DNA from: Deltaproteobacteria bacterium
GTDB lineage: Bacteria; Desulfobacterota; Binatia; Binatales; Binataceae
DNA: 40,720 nt
Reading direction: 5' to 3'
Assembly: GCA_021817345.1 (NCBI GenBank)
Contig: JAKAVC010000075.1
Location: forward strand, 1 to 40,720
In this document: positions 361-21,367 of the stretch, piece by piece
Position numbering within the stretch: position 1 is the first letter of the stretch
Layout of the letters: each line of letters starts with the position of its first letter
Translations under genes and position numbers: made by a program
Notes under the pieces: model-generated
Databases searched by the model: none
The model's input: only the letters and a program-made list of their open reading frames with translations
What the model was told of the DNA's origin: nothing

Positions 361-1558
361 TTACGCTGCCTCCGGTTGTTGGTTGACGGGGTTCAGGTCG
401 TGCCAGCCGACCAGGCGGCGCAGGGTTACCTGGCCGCCGCGCAGTAGTCCGAAGAGCAGGAAGAGGACCGCCTCCTCGCCGGGGAGCGACGCCTGGGTCT
501 TGGTTCGCCGGCGAAACTCCTCGTTGATTCGTTCCAGCGCGTTGGTGGTCCGCAGCGCCTTCCACCGCGAAATCGGGAAAGCGGTGAAGGTAAAAAGCTC
601 GTCGCCGGCCTCATCGAAGCTGGCAAACACCGCCTGCGAGCGCAGTTTCCATTTGCGCGCAAAGCCGGCGCGCGCCTGCTCCACGGCGGCCCGGCTCTCC
701 GCGTAGATCATGCGCCGATAATCCTCGGCCAGCTCCTCGCGCAGATGGGCCGGGGCCTTGGCGAGCAGATTCCAGAGCTTATGGTTGGTACAGCGTTGCA
801 GCGCGAGCTTCGGCCATTGCGCTTTAAGCGCCGCGGCCAGACCCGGGTTGCCGTCGATCACCGCCAGCAGCGGAGCGCCGAGGTTGCGGATGACCAGCGA
901 GTGGACCGCATCGAGCCAGGCGCGCTCGCTTTCCACTCCCGCCAGCCTGAGGTCCAAGATCACCCTGCGCCCGTCCGCGCACACGCCCAGGGTGACCAGC
1001 ACCGGCACTCGCACGCGCTTTTTACCGATCCGCACCCGGCGGATACCAGCCGTCGAGAAACAGGTAGCGGACTTTCAGCTCGGCGAGATCTCGCTTCGCC
1101 CATGCTGCGAAGTCCTCGCGCAGCCGCCCGACCAGGCGCGACACCGCGTCTTTCGACAACGGCGCACCGCGCGGCAGCGGGGAGAGCGCGCCACGCAGGC
1201 GGCGGGTGTTGGTGCCGCTCAAATAGACCCCGAGGATCGCCTCGTCCACCCGTTCGGTGCGCCGTTGGTAGCGCGCAATGATCGCACTGCGCCACTCGCG
1301 CCTTCGGCCGTCGTCATCCGCGATCCGAGCTCGCGGCATCATGATCGTGGTCGCGCCCAGACTGGTGCTCAGGCTTCGCGCGCGTTTGCCATGCCGATAG
1401 CCGACGCGATTGGCGCCGACTCGCTGCGACCGCGCGGCGCCCAAGGCTGCCTCCAGCTCCTCCTCGACGATCGCCTCGATCGTCCCGCGAATCCGCTCCC
1501 GCATCGGCTCCTCAAGCGCGCCTTTTCCTGCCAAGTGACTCCTGCTATCCCTCTCCAT
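361..1558 (-). pseudogene. IS256-family transposase, frameshifted
   Basis: Two consecutive minus-strand frames together give about 402 residues, the normal length for an IS256 transposase. The first part (1558 to 1022) starts at an ATG with GGAGG about 9 bases upstream and contains the first catalytic Asp in 'YLFLDGWY'. The second part (from about 1035 to 361) continues 'VRIGKKRVRVPVLVTLG', then carries the second Asp in 'AVIDGNPGL' and the catalytic Glu in 'TTNALERINEEFRRR'. The switch occurs at a GGG run at 1035-1037: removing one G restores a single frame. All three DDE residues survive, so the gene is either recently inactivated or affected by a base-calling error. IS256 elements are not known to need frameshifting. 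Confidence 0.85.
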
Positions 1559-1633
1559 GGCGTCATCCTCCGAAACCCGCTCATCGGCGGGCCCGAGTTG
1601 TGGCTCAACTCGCCGGATCTTGACGCCTTTTTA

Positions 1634-15551: not shown

Positions 15552-16634
15552 ATGGCGCGAATCAAAATCGAACGATTGCTCAATCTCGGCGCTCCCTACA
15601 CGCCCGAGATGCAGCAGGGCGGAAAACGGCCCGAGCCGACCTGGACCACGCTCGCAAGCCAGGTGGCGGAGGCCGAGGCGCTCGGCTTCGATACCGTCAT
15701 GGCGGTCGAAACCCAGCACGACCCATATCTAATCCTGGCGATCGCGGCGCAGCATCCCGCGCGCGTCGAGCTTGCCACCGGGATCGCGCTCGCCTTTACC
15801 AAAAGCCCGGTCGCAACCGCCTACACCGCCTGGGATATTCAGCGCATGAGCGGCGGACGCCTCGTGCTCGGCCTGGGTTCGCAGGTCAAAGGCCATGTGA
15901 CGCGGCGCTTCGGGATGCCGTGGAGCAAGCCCGCGCAACGGATGAAGGATTACGTCGGCGCGATGCGCGCGTGCTGGAAGACGTGGCAGACGGGCGAGCC
16001 GCTCAACTTCCGAAGCGAACACTATAATCTCTCGCTGATGACGCCGAATTTCGCGCCGACGCCGGTGACGAATCCGCACATCCCGGTCCTGATCGCCGCG
16101 GTGCAGGAGCGGATGCTGCAGGTAGCGGGCGAAGTGTGCGACGGCGTGCGCCTGCACGGAATCGTCACGCGCAAATATCTCGACGAGATCGCGTTCCCGA
16201 ACCTGAAAAAAGGTTTTCAGAAAGCGGGGCGGCCGGAATCCGAATGGGCTAATTTCCAGATCGGCGGCGGCGGGTTTCTCTGCGTCGCGTCCGACAAGGA
16301 CTCGCTTGCGCGTGCGGTCGAAGGCCTGAAATCCACGATCGCCTTCTATGGCTCGACGCGTTCGTACCGTTCGAGCTTTGAACTCGACGGATGGGGCGAC
16401 ACGGCGGAGCAGTTGCATCGGCTGTCGGTCCAGCAGAAATGGCGCGAGATGCCGGCGCTGGTAACCGAGGAGATGGTGCACGCGTTTGCGGCGGTCGGCA
16501 CCTACGCGGATATCGCCTCGGCGATGAAGAAGCGGTTCGCCGGCGTCAATCGGCTGAGTTTCGATATCCCGGTTCGCAACGATCACGATCGCGGAGTGTT
16601 GAAGGAAATCCTGCAGGACCTCCGCCGCGAATAA
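15552..16634 (+). CDS. LLM-class flavin/F420-dependent oxidoreductase
   Basis: A 360-residue member of the luciferase-like monooxygenase (LLM) superfamily, TIM-barrel enzymes using F420 or FMN. Family features are 'VAEAEALGFDTVMAVE', 'VELATGIALAFTKSP', 'WDIQRMSGGRLVLGLGSQV' and the late 'HGIVTRKYLDEI'. Overall length and wording match F420-dependent members more than two-component FMN monooxygenases, so F420 use is likely but not proven. The substrate is unknown. It follows hisA closely and may be co-transcribed, yet has no known role in histidine synthesis. Transcription probably ends at the hairpin at 16655-16686. Confidence 0.85.
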   Translation: MARIKIERLLNLGAPYTPEMQQGGKRPEPTWTTLASQVAEAEALGFDTVMAVETQHDPYLILAIAAQHPARVELATGIALAFTKSPVATAYTAWDIQRMSGGRLVLGLGSQVKGHVTRRFGMPWSKPAQRMKDYVGAMRACWKTWQTGEPLNFRSEHYNLSLMTPNFAPTPVTNPHIPVLIAAVQERMLQVAGEVCDGVRLHGIVTRKYLDEIAFPNLKKGFQKAGRPESEWANFQIGGGGFLCVASDKDSLARAVEGLKSTIAFYGSTRSYRSSFELDGWGDTAEQLHRLSVQQKWREMPALVTEEMVHAFAAVGTYADIASAMKKRFAGVNRLSFDIPVRNDHDRGVLKEILQDLRRE

Positions 16635-16722: not shown

Positions 16723-17577
16723 TCAGATCGATACCGGCATCGGACGCCCGATGAGTTGTTCCACGCTCGGGCAGGAAGCGCGCATATGGCGCTCGAACTC
16801 GCCGCGTTCCATCCGCGGCGCAAGAAAACGATCGCGTCCCCAGTTGGTGAGCATGTAGTAGCGTTCAATCGCCGCTTCGCCGCGCGGCACGACACCCTTG
16901 TGGAACAGGTATCTCCAGGTGAGAACGTGGCGCGCCTCTTCCGGTTTGACGATTTTGTTCACCTGCTCGGCAAGCTGAGCGGCTAGCGGATGACGCCATT
17001 CGGCGCACGCCCTCAACACCAGCGGAAACGCGCGTTCCAGCGCGAGCGTTTCCACTCCACCAAGGACCGCCATGATGTCCAGCACCTTTTGCGTGTTGAC
17101 GGCTGGATCGTCCGTGGGATCGAGGAAATTCGCTCCCTGCTGGAATCCGTCCTCCGCGACCGGCTCGGCGGCGATTCCACCCATCTCATAGTAAGCCGCG
17201 CCGAAGATTTTGTCGCCGTGGCCGGCTTCCTCGGCTGACTGCTGGTTAAGGGCGACGAAGGCCGCGTCACGCACCTCGGGCGCGAGCTCCGACCTGATGG
17301 CGCATCGCGCGGCCCGATACGTCGGGTCCTGACCGGCCTTTTCGGTCACCGCATACCCGCGCAGCATCATGTAGAAGTCCGCCACCGTCATCGGCTTACC
17401 CTCGTAATCGGTGGCGACCAGCGGGTCCGGGTCGATTCCCCGCTCGGAGAGCCGTGCGCGCGCGCCAGGCAATTGCGCACGCATCTTTTCGAGCAAGAGC
17501 TGGTTCTGGCGTTCGCGCTCGGCGCGAATCGCGGCCGGATCGAAGACGCTTTGAGCGGCGGTGTCACGATCAGCCAT
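16723..17577 (-). CDS. Ferritin-like superfamily protein, putative diiron
   Basis: A 284-residue mostly helical protein with no signal peptide. It has two ExxH motifs, 'EEAGH' at 116-120 and 'EEARH' at 213-217. Glu79 (in 'AVTEK') and Glu176 (in 'GGVETLALE') could be the remaining carboxylate ligands. The E...ExxH...E...ExxH order is that of ferritin-like four-helix bundles holding two irons, found in oxygenases and oxidases as well as stores; 284 residues is too long for a storage ferritin. I cannot assign a substrate. The ATG at 17577 has GGAG about 13 bases upstream. It is divergent from an O-methyltransferase, with a palindrome 29 bases upstream of its start that could control both. Confidence 0.7.
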   Translation of the reverse strand: MADRDTAAQSVFDPAAIRAERERQNQLLLEKMRAQLPGARARLSERGIDPDPLVATDYEGKPMTVADFYMMLRGYAVTEKAGQDPTYRAARCAIRSELAPEVRDAAFVALNQQSAEEAGHGDKIFGAAYYEMGGIAAEPVAEDGFQQGANFLDPTDDPAVNTQKVLDIMAVLGGVETLALERAFPLVLRACAEWRHPLAAQLAEQVNKIVKPEEARHVLTWRYLFHKGVVPRGEAAIERYYMLTNWGRDRFLAPRMERGEFERHMRASCPSVEQLIGRPMPVSI

Positions 17578-17605: not shown

Positions 17606-17621
17606 CCTAACAATCGTTAGG
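17606..17621. promoter_or_regulatory. Perfect palindrome, candidate TetR operator
   Basis: CCTAACAATCGTTAGG is a perfect 6+4+6 inverted repeat in the 171-bp region between two divergent genes. TAAC-N4-GTTA half-sites of this size are common TetR-family operators, and a TetR gene lies just beyond the methyltransferase. Its position close to the ferritin-like gene's start suits repression. Confidence 0.5.
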
Positions 17622-17703: not shown

Positions 17704-17739
17704 ATGATTGTCTTTTTCAAGATGATTGTCTTTTTCAAG
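17704..17739 (+). repeat. Two tandem copies of an 18-bp unit upstream of the methyltransferase
   Basis: The unit ATGATTGTCTTTTTCAAG occurs at 17704-17721 and again, exactly, at 17722-17739. The last bases of copy two, with the next GAG, form the AAGGAG ribosome site of the methyltransferase. Each copy starts with an in-frame ATG, so upstream initiation would add six or twelve residues, but neither ATG has a good ribosome site. Confidence 0.85.
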
Positions 17740-17748
17740 GAGAATGCG

Positions 17749-18839: not shown

Positions 18840-19532
18840 CTAGCGCGACATCAACCCTGCCGTAACCATCCGGTAAACCTCGTCGGTTATGCGCAGGCGT
18901 TGCTCGTCGTAGCGCGGCGGCTCGTCCCAGTTGCAGAACCAGTTCATCGCTCCGAACATCAGCGAGGCGATTATCTGCGAGTCTTCGCGCTCGAGCGTCT
19001 TACCGTATTTTTCGGCGACCCGTTCGACGATCCTGCGGCAGACGCGCGAGTACTCGCGCTTGAAGCGCGCGATTTGCGTCGCATGACGGCCCGAGAGCGA
19101 ATCGGCCTCGCGCACCAGGACCTTCATCTCGGGTAGGTTGTTCATGTGGTATTCGAGATGGCCCTGGATGAACAGGCGTAGCGCCTCCTCGGGATCGGCG
19201 GCCTGTTCGGCGCGTTCCCGTGCGCCTTTCAGCAACTGCTCGAAGGCCCGCCTGGAGATGAGGTAGAGCAGTTCTTCCTTGTTGCGCAGATAGTAGTAGA
19301 TGCGCGGAAAGGAGATTTGCGCATGCGCGGCGATGTCGCGAATGGACGCGATGCCGAAGCTTTTTTCCGCAAATACCGCGGCGGCCGCCTGCAATATGTG
19401 TTCTATATTGGCGTCATAGCGTTCTTCGGGGCCGAGCGTGCGCCGGTTGCTCCTGGCCGCGGCGGCGCGTCTGGACGACGAAGCGGGATGTGATCGTTTC
19501 ACCCAATCCTCCCTGCGCGGCGTGTCGATCAT
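18840..19532 (-). CDS. TetR-family transcriptional regulator
   Basis: A 230-residue regulator. A basic tail of about 40 residues precedes the TetR helix-turn-helix: 'ILQAAAAVFAEKSFGIASIR' then 'DIAAHAQISFPRIYYYLRNK' covers the two DNA-binding helices (about 46-92). The C-terminal ligand-binding domain is helical and resembles regulators of lipid or aromatic acyl-CoA catabolism. It presumably binds a small effector and releases its operators. Nearby palindrome CCTAACAATCGTTAGG at 17606-17621 is a candidate site. Two SDR genes lie upstream in the same orientation. A start farther downstream is possible given the disordered N-terminus. Confidence 0.88.
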   Translation of the reverse strand: MIDTPRREDWVKRSHPASSSRRAAAARSNRRTLGPEERYDANIEHILQAAAAVFAEKSFGIASIRDIAAHAQISFPRIYYYLRNKEELLYLISRRAFEQLLKGARERAEQAADPEEALRLFIQGHLEYHMNNLPEMKVLVREADSLSGRHATQIARFKREYSRVCRRIVERVAEKYGKTLEREDSQIIASLMFGAMNWFCNWDEPPRYDEQRLRITDEVYRMVTAGLMSR

Positions 19533-19658: not shown

Positions 19659-20429
19659 CTAACCCGCCATCGTAAGGCCGCCGCTCACACTGAGCACCTG
19701 CCCGGTGACGAAATCGGCGTCGGACGACGCGAAGAAAGCGACCGCGCCGGCGAGATCCTCCGGCTTGCCGAGCCGCCGAAACGGGATCGCGCGCGCCATC
19801 GCCGTAAGCACGCCCTCGCGCCCCTCCATCGCGTCGCGCAGGAGCGCGGTCTCGGTCGGGCCCGGGCACACCACGTTAACGTTGATGCCGTAACGGGCGA
19901 GTTCACGCGCGAGCGTCTTGGAAAACGCGATTATCGCGCCCTTGCACCCGGCGTAAACCGCCTCGCCGGTCGAGCCAACGCGTCCGGCGTCGGATGAAAT
20001 GGAGACTATCTTGCCGGCCTTGCGCGACTGCATCCGAGGCGCGATCGCCTTGCAGCAGTTGAGCACGCCGCGATAGTTGATCGCGATTACCCGGTCCCAC
20101 GTTTCGGGGGTGCTGTCGAGGAACGGCTCGACCCGGTCCCATCCCGCGTTATTGACGAGGACGTCGATCGGGCCAAGCTCGCGCTCGACGCGATCGGCGG
20201 CGGCGAGCGCCTGGTCGAGCCGGGTCACGTCGAGTTCGACGGCGAGCGCGTGGCCAGCCGCGGCGCGGATTTCTTCGGCGGTCGCATTGGCGGCGGCGGT
20301 CTGAATGTCCGCGACGGCAACCTTCGCGCCCTCGGCCGCAAGCCGAAATGCGATCGCGCGTCCGATACCCTGCGCGGCGCCGGTTACAATAGCCACTTTT
20401 CCCTTCAGCCTGATGCTCGAAGTTTCCAT
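19659..20429 (-). CDS. SDR dehydrogenase, BadH-like (2-hydroxycyclohexanecarboxyl-CoA dehydrogenase-like)
   Basis: A 256-residue classical short-chain dehydrogenase/reductase with cofactor motif 'TGAAQGIG' (16-23), 'NNAGWD' (93-98) and catalytic Ser146, Tyr159 and Lys163. Several stretches, 'VGSTGEAVYAGCKGA', 'VVCPGPTETALL' and the C-terminal 'GQVLSVSGGLTMAG', closely recall BadH, which oxidises 2-hydroxycyclohexane-1-carboxyl-CoA to the keto thioester in alicyclic-acid and some benzoate pathways. I recognise this by wording, not alignment. No other bad genes are visible in the window, so the substrate may differ. The ATG at 20429 was preferred to an upstream TTG. It lies 62 bp after a second SDR. 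Confidence 0.85.
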   Translation of the reverse strand: METSSIRLKGKVAIVTGAAQGIGRAIAFRLAAEGAKVAVADIQTAAANATAEEIRAAAGHALAVELDVTRLDQALAAADRVERELGPIDVLVNNAGWDRVEPFLDSTPETWDRVIAINYRGVLNCCKAIAPRMQSRKAGKIVSISSDAGRVGSTGEAVYAGCKGAIIAFSKTLARELARYGINVNVVCPGPTETALLRDAMEGREGVLTAMARAIPFRRLGKPEDLAGAVAFFASSDADFVTGQVLSVSGGLTMAG

Positions 20430-20490
20430 GTTTCTCACAATCGCCTTTTCAAACAAGGATGCTACGCGAACGGGCGCGACAGGAGGATTG

Positions 20491-21246
20491 TTAGGTCACG
20501 GTCCATCCGCCGTCGATAATAAACGGGGCTCCGGTTGCAAACGAAGAGTCGTCGCTGGCCAGGAAGAGCGCGGTTCTGGCGATCTCCTGCGCAACGCCCA
20601 CCCGCCCGAGGACCGAGAGCCTCGCGGTCTGCTGCTGGTTCATCCCGCCGCTCGCATGAAGCCGCTCGACCATCGGCGTATCGATCGCGCCCGGACAGAT
20701 ACAGTTGACGCGGATATTGTAGCGTCCGTACTCGGCGGCGCCGACGCGCGTAAGCGCGATCACGCCGGCCTTCGCCGCGCAGTACGCCGCCGAGCCGCGA
20801 ATCGCGACGAGCCCCGCAATCGATGCGGTGTTGATAATCGAGCCGCCGCCGTTGCGGATCATGTGGGGCAGTGCGTGTTTCATCCCGAGCCATACGCCGC
20901 GAAGGTTGATCGCGATGACGCGATCGAATCCTTCTTCGCTCAGTTGGGCGAGGAATCCACCTTCGCCTTCAATACCAGCGTTATTGAAAAGCACGTCGGG
21001 CGGTCCGAAGTTCTTGACCGTCGCCGCGACCATCGCCTCGGCGTCCTCGCCGCGCGACACGTCGGCGCGAAAGGCGAATGCGTGTCCGCCCTCCGCCTTG
21101 ATCCGCTGCACGGTCTGGGCGGCGGAAGCCTCATTGATATCGGTTACGGCGACGCTGGCGCCCTCCCTGGCGAATAGAAGCGCGGTCGCCCGGCCCATCC
21201 CCGAGCCGCCACCGGTTATAAGTGCCGTCTTTCCGGCAAGCTTCAT
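20491..21246 (-). CDS. SDR-family oxidoreductase
   Basis: A 250-residue classical SDR with 'TGGGSGMG' (11-18) for NAD(P) binding, 'NNAG' (88-91) and catalytic Ser142, Tyr155 and Lys159. Asp36 in 'VAVTDINE' after the second strand suggests NAD(H) preference. The ATG at 21246 is preceded by an excellent GGAGGAG site. Its substrate cannot be named. It is the first gene of a probable minus-strand unit with the BadH-like SDR and possibly the TetR regulator. Confidence 0.88.
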   Translation of the reverse strand: MKLAGKTALITGGGSGMGRATALLFAREGASVAVTDINEASAAQTVQRIKAEGGHAFAFRADVSRGEDAEAMVAATVKNFGPPDVLFNNAGIEGEGGFLAQLSEEGFDRVIAINLRGVWLGMKHALPHMIRNGGGSIINTASIAGLVAIRGSAAYCAAKAGVIALTRVGAAEYGRYNIRVNCICPGAIDTPMVERLHASGGMNQQQTARLSVLGRVGVAQEIARTALFLASDDSSFATGAPFIIDGGWTVT

Positions 21247-21367
21247 CCCCAATCTCCTCCGCGAGAAGTCGGTTTTGCGTTTCGCACAATAGCGCATTGC
21301 TTCGCGATCGGGTTAACCGTGAGTGGTTGCGGTGAAGCGCGGCGCGGTGTGCCGTCGCGCCCGCGGG

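Follow-up and report, generated by a model that had tools for sequence, protein, structure and literature searches.

A predicted diiron-type protein at a locus where relatives carry diiron-type oxidases of other kinds and a ligase

The window, a stretch of 40,720 nucleotides from a Deltaproteobacteria bacterium of the Binataceae (contig JAKAVC010000075.1), encodes an orphan protein of 284 amino acids, P0001, with a predicted diiron ligand set. What kind of protein this is, and which step it may catalyse at its locus, is the question addressed here. The gene lies on the minus strand at 16723..17577, with an ATG at 17577 and a stop codon at 16725-16723. A sister copy from the same genus, 86% identical and the sole other full-length copy found, is in L003 (the MAG Deltaproteobacteria bacterium DBS2-4.bin15, apparently one and the same as genome G318). 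P0001 is a genuine gene, and purifying selection acts on it. The two copies differ at 143 nucleotides, of which 21, 20 and 102 fall on the first, second and third codon positions, and pN/pS is 0.16 in frame; the four other frames give 2.0 to 3.0, and a single antisense frame gives 0.28. The coordinates and residue positions given in a preliminary description of this DNA are confirmed. Forty amino acids differ between the copies, none of them at E79, E117, H120, E176, E214 or H217.

These six residues were the ones that the preliminary description had assigned to a four-helix diiron site. They are in place in the order E79, E117..H120, E176, E214..H217 and are all invariant in the sister copy; the diiron-type pattern as such is supported. 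The same order Glu, ExxH, Glu, ExxH characterizes the ferritin-like diiron oxygenases (FDO superfamily: ADO, AurF, PaaA and desaturases), whose ligand sets range from four carboxylates and two histidines upward (PMC13108848). In P0001, the helix-3 ligand would be either E176 or E181; the latter and a third ExxH motif (E193..H196) were missing from the preliminary description, and its choice of E176 is doubtful, E181 being an equal candidate (decoy fractions of 0.21 and 0.063 for E176 and E181, respectively, in the comparison below). Five histidines are conserved between the two copies (H120, H196, H217, H226, and H264). The E-to-E spacing is 38 in the first hairpin and 38 (E176) or 33 (E181) in the second, in contrast to 29-34 in AurF-like and PaaA-type templates and to the ADO motif EX28-29EX2H (PMC4286721). 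Over the whole protein, ligand spacing amounts to 38/59/38 with E176, which would give EX37EX2H in both hairpins, or to 38/64/33 with E181, compared to 38/53/33 in plant PF03405 members. Among 20,000 shuffles of P0001, 0.475% held two ExxH motifs 80-115 residues apart and both preceded, at a distance of 27-40 residues, by a Glu, these ranges having been chosen post hoc with P0001 already known. P0001 does exceed ferritins in length by far, but this is nothing unusual, given diiron proteins of 246 aa (PaaA-like) and 357 aa (AurF-like).

The earlier statement that P0001 is not a recognised oxygenase also held. No match was obtained in Pfam (E<=10), NCBIfam (E<=1) or PHROGs (E<=10), and a PDB sequence search gave nothing meaningful (best E 0.28). 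P0001 thus differs from the FDO families in lacking any family HMM match: the PF03405 profile had no match to it at E<=10, and a class-wide PF03405 search at E<=0.01 listed another place in the window's genome but not the P0001 locus; PF11583 (AurF) listed five other places in its own genome at E<=1 but not P0001, and gave none in the Pfam scan; PF05138 (PaaA_PaaC) had no Pfam match, nor was an HMM of the cluster members described below significant. Comparison of P0001 with desaturase, PF03405-like, PaaA-like and CADD-like profiles by hmmsearch and hhalign gave no significant result. AlphaFold predictions on the two-row alignment were too poor to be used (pLDDT 48.8 and pTM 0.35 for the full length; pLDDT 46.9 and pTM 0.45 for residues 58-254), most likely because there are few relatives. 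Foldseek searches with these models had no match at E<=0.001; for residues 58-254, the 50 rows listed were mostly ferritins, but with E values of at least 0.85, query TM of 0.14-0.21 and rmsd of 12-20 A they carry no weight. Of 690 chains, VIA-align scored 43 at Z>=2, with a top Z of 3.2 over 73 residues at an rmsd of 3.9, and many of the listed rows were globins. Titles and abstract openings of the papers listed held nothing on P0001 or the cluster, which is no proof of absence from print. The window's genome encodes a PF03405-like protein elsewhere (G000:C50; L057, L046), of a type matched in 24 genomes of the family, and the same contig encodes another PaaA-like protein, as judged by eye.

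We then compared P0001 with FDO ligand helices by ungapped scoring around each proposed ligand, excluding the ligand residues themselves, against ten FDO proteins, in which the ligands had been picked out by eye on the basis of motifs and of what is known about the families. A four-helix test used nine templates; L045, L046, L047 and most PF03405-like sequences were left out. Decoys were windows of natural proteins holding Glu (4,000 sampled of 8,949) or ExxH (all 274) from 497 ORFs, from which ORFs with family motifs were dropped before counting (six motifs in the ligand-anchored test, the P0001 or DEAAH motif in the four-helix test). Summed over templates, the fraction of decoys that reached or exceeded the score of P0001 was 0.0255 at E79, 0.058 at E117, 0.21 at E176, 0.063 at E181, and 0.0255 at E214. 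The best single matches were the desaturase 2uw1 for helix 1 (0 of 4,000 decoys as high), PaaA for helix 2 (0 of 274) and an AurF-like protein for helix 4 (0 of 274), while helix 3 fitted PaaA at E176 (0.0045) and 1afr at E181 (0.0177). The strongest single matches thus stem from different FDO families. At the level of sequence, this helix-local resemblance modestly favours FDO membership of P0001, with no one family singled out.

The plant acyl-ACP desaturases (1afr and 2uw1; PF03405) share with P0001 the 38-residue first hairpin, the ligand register and an AEExxHGD motif. If E181 is the ligand, both hairpin spacings (38 and 33) match, and in the four-helix register 2 of 37,209 decoy windows scored as high against 1afr and none of 37,209 against 2uw1. 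An HMM of two plant desaturases placed P0001, with E79 and E117 in register, 4th in a set of 1,003 sequences that included 1,000 shuffles. P0001 could be a distant homologue of the soluble, plant-type desaturases acting on an acyl carrier substrate. We regard this as unlikely, since the two-desaturase HMM scored P0001 at just 3.9 bits, which is not significant, the middle segment of P0001 would be 11 residues longer, and the plant comparison was selected post hoc, after the motif resemblance had been noticed. The seven other, bacterial PF03405-type templates showed no resemblance (5-40% of decoys scored at least as high as P0001), a mixed plant and bacterial desaturase HMM ranked P0001 247th of 673 listed, and the PF03405 searches had missed both protein and locus. 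Membership of P0001 in the PF03405 acyl-ACP desaturases is thus unsupported by the mixed-family HMM and by the bacterial templates.

If P0001 were a helical protein lacking a diiron site, with ExxH motifs that arose by coincidence, this would account for the missing family match and for the poor structure predictions, but it sits badly with a ligand pattern found in 0.5% of shuffles, with the invariance of the ligands and with their ligand-anchored resemblance to FDO helices; we hold it to be decidedly unlikely.

The surroundings of P0001 provide context. In line with the regulated placement given in the preliminary description, a TetR-family regulator lies close by (18840..19532, minus strand; PF00440 and TetR_C_24), and it shares 61-70% identity with the TetR found in a gene cluster of relatives. 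Upstream of it on the same strand are two short-chain dehydrogenases, SDR1 (19659..20456; top NCBIfam match BadH, under the model cut-off) and SDR2 (20491..21297), which are 74-79% (87.5% for one contig-end fragment) and 69-72% identical to their cluster counterparts, respectively. The minus strand thus reads SDR2, SDR1, TetR and P0001, with a methyltransferase on the opposite strand between the last two, and is followed by a convergent LLM-class oxidoreductase (15552..16634, plus strand; TIGR03617 over cut-off). Gene order in L003 is identical. In the relatives, the cluster runs on one strand in the order SDR2, SDR1, PaaA-like protein, TetR, AMP ligase, and CADD-like oxidase (for example L091 1940-8611, with equivalents in L090, L092 and L138-L143). 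This order was recovered from nine of 41 family genomes, in seven of them whole on one contig (G313, G315, G325, G326, G344, G346, and G347) and in two consistent but cut by contig ends (the G343 contig begins inside SDR1; the G314 cluster is split inside the ligase over two contigs). The PaaA-like protein (P0004) matches PF05138 over cut-off, the oxidase (P0005) matches PF14518 over and TIGR04305 below cut-off, and the aryl-acid-type AMP ligase stays under the cut-offs of the EntE-type models that it matches. PaaA-like orthologues (at least 78% identity) are present in nine of the 41 genomes and CADD-like orthologues (at least 74%) in ten, i.e., the same nine and G340. Orthologues of the LLM protein (74-100% identity to that of L003) occur in 21 of 41, and the gene is convergent with that of the CADD-like oxidase on all four contigs holding both (G314, G325, G326, and G346). 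The relatives' cluster looks like an uncharacterised aryl-acid pathway.

The window and the sister locus keep SDR2, SDR1, TetR and LLM, and carry P0001 and the methyltransferase instead of the other three genes. No PaaA-like, ligase or CADD-like gene is present at the locus in either P0001 genome, neither genome has a match to the PaaA-like or CADD-like protein at E<=1e-20, and conversely none of the 12 stretches checked has a P0001 relative at E<=1e-5. This is a locus swap: P0001 stands where relatives have the ligase and two diiron-type oxidases of other kinds. Lying next to the convergent LLM gene, P0001 occupies the slot and strand of the CADD-like oxidase, while the PaaA-like gene lies on the other, upstream side of TetR and away from the terminal slot. 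Among the scanned neighbours of P0001, none was recognised as a reductase partner. Position at the locus is no proof of function; P0001 is probably a replacement oxidation enzyme.

The shared slot, strand and convergence with LLM would fit a haem-oxygenase-like diiron oxidase (HDO), in which case P0001 would be a diverged equivalent of the cluster's CADD-like enzyme. Its E117..H120, E176, E214..H217 spacing also speaks for this, being UndA-like. The ligands argue otherwise: P0001 lacks the HxxxD/ExxH motif, has V210 at the position expected for His and has five conserved histidines in all, while P0005 has a ligand set of HxxxDxxH (by eye) and no sequence similarity to P0001. HDO ligands are mostly three His and three carboxylates, and there is also a mononuclear variant with two of the ligands lost, which would favour this assignment (PMC13108848). 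With a 25-sequence profile of the CADD-like oxidase and its paralogues, P0002 ranked 961st and P0001 was unlisted among 2,003 sequences. An HDO identity, prompted by slot and spacing, thus failed on ligands and profile and is quite improbable. Very improbable, finally, is a descent of P0001, by divergence, from the same stock as the PaaA-like FDO of the cluster, in place of an unrelated replacement: its helix-2 segment APEVRDAAFVALNQQSAEEAGHG resembles APTLRRKAILLAKVQDEAGHG of PaaA, as in the decoy comparison above, and the PaaA-like gene is missing where P0001 occurs, but P0004, which shares the locus and like P0001 is a predicted FDO, has no detectable homology to it (0.06 to 0.88 of decoys as high in the ligand-anchored test), hhalign and HMM searches with PaaA-like proteins gave nothing (P0001 307th of 1,239 listed), and the PaaA-like gene lies across TetR from the P0001 slot.

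We therefore return to P0001 as a highly diverged, stand-alone FDO that likely performs the O2-dependent step of the locus pathway, which is the best explanation overall and one we consider reasonably probable. Fold, metal, chemistry and substrate are inferred here, the chemistry by analogy with FDOs, which carry out many hard C-H and N oxidations. Four helices of P0001 would supply a site of four carboxylates and two histidines (E79; E117 and H120; E176 or E181; E214 and H217), whose diferrous form would, on reaction with O2, give a peroxo-diferric species, and this would hydroxylate or otherwise oxidise a small molecule, perhaps an aromatic or alicyclic acid. This would likely be the O2-dependent step of the same pathway as in the relatives' cluster or of a sister pathway, and the methyltransferase could possibly cap the new hydroxyl. 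More tentatively, P0001 may found a new FDO family whose site would be symmetric and elongated (EX37EX2H twice, E79/E117 and E176/E214), in a non-homologous scaffold swap in which P0001 and the methyltransferase displaced the PaaA-like FDO, the EntE-like ligase and the CADD-like oxidase on a TetR-SDR-SDR-LLM chassis. An FDO-type protein that is missed by the searched family libraries and stands at a locus where related bacteria use other diiron scaffolds would mark a defined place for new chemistry, and the same dehydrogenases and regulator combined with two oxygenase sets offer a natural comparison that could reveal a shared substrate.

P0001 has a narrow distribution. With a two-row profile, full-length copies were found in two of 148 class genomes, both of one genus. 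At E<=0.1, 13 of the 148 genomes had matches, comprising the two full-length copies, one relic, and ten that were judged chance (seven from their tblastn alignment, three without a tblastn alignment at E<=5). Two draws from the phylum, which may overlap, yielded no further full-length copy among the matches inspected: 297 genomes gave two matches at E<=0.001 (its own genome and the relic) and 395 genomes gave three at E<=0.01 (the relic, G018, and G042, the last being L049). A search of genome_contigs with exact peptide patterns, the sole scan of other phyla, returned one locus. There was no relative in viral_contigs and none in plasmids at E<=0.01; three plasmid records and five phage records at E<=10 were judged chance, and in two Acetobacter chance records the match lies antisense to an annotated gene. 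The relic is in G221, a genome of another genus in the family, where a stretch of 24 residues (L004 ~1501-1572, minus strand) is 79% identical to P0001 residues 178-201. It adjoins an ORF that by eye resembles a serine hydrolase, the rest of the P0001 gene is not recognisable, and it looks like a remnant of the gene, as judged by this short alignment.

The O-methyltransferase that is divergent from P0001 (17749..18789, plus strand; PF00891, Methyltransf_2, and PF08100, Dimerisation) had been paired with it in the preliminary description. The divergent neighbour is indeed present, but the link is weaker than claimed: relatives of the methyltransferase occur in 28 of 57 genomes (E<=1e-30), none of 14 stretches around them holds a P0001 relative at E<=1e-3, and their neighbours vary by genome in the stretches scanned. 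A survey of gene neighbourhoods, as proposed in the preliminary description, shows the pair within the window's genus only, and the firmer association of P0001 is with SDR2, SDR1, TetR and LLM. The window is not alone in having a methyltransferase beside LLM, as G315 has an orthologue (48.6%) directly after LLM. The longest ORF of the gene starts at 17704, but a tandem repeat of the 18-bp ATGATTGTCTTTTTCAAG (17704-17748) comes just before 17749; the sister protein aligns from the Met equivalent to 17749, and 17749, after AAGGAG, is more likely the true start.

The intergenic region that separates P0001 from the methyltransferase gene holds a perfect 16-bp palindrome, CCTAACAATCGTTAGG (17606-17621). 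It is located 28 bp upstream of the ATG of P0001 and is a candidate TetR operator. The sister locus keeps the half-sites CTAA-N6-TTAG at the aligned place. As the search pattern was derived from the site itself, what speaks for it is exactness and conservation: with up to two mismatches the pattern matched in 40 of 100 window shuffles, with a chance expectation of 0.51 per window and 0.15 in L003, and the palindrome was not found in ten loci of relatives. We infer that the TetR regulator may bind here.

Further variation was observed around the shared genes. The cluster of G326 (L092 3695-6585) also holds an AurF-like gene (PF11583, E 3e-22) and two PhyH genes. In relatives, an extra SDR gene, 44-46% identical to SDR2, is divergent beside SDR2 (L090 9474-10280, L091 1037-1801, L139 6440-7273, and others); it was not seen beside SDR2 in the window. 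In genus g2 (L093, with L095 and L098 similar by eye), another type of methyltransferase and an amidohydrolase come after SDR2-SDR1 or SDR1. Near the start of the window, at 361-1558 on the minus strand, two adjacent ORFs resemble by eye a split mutator-type transposase.
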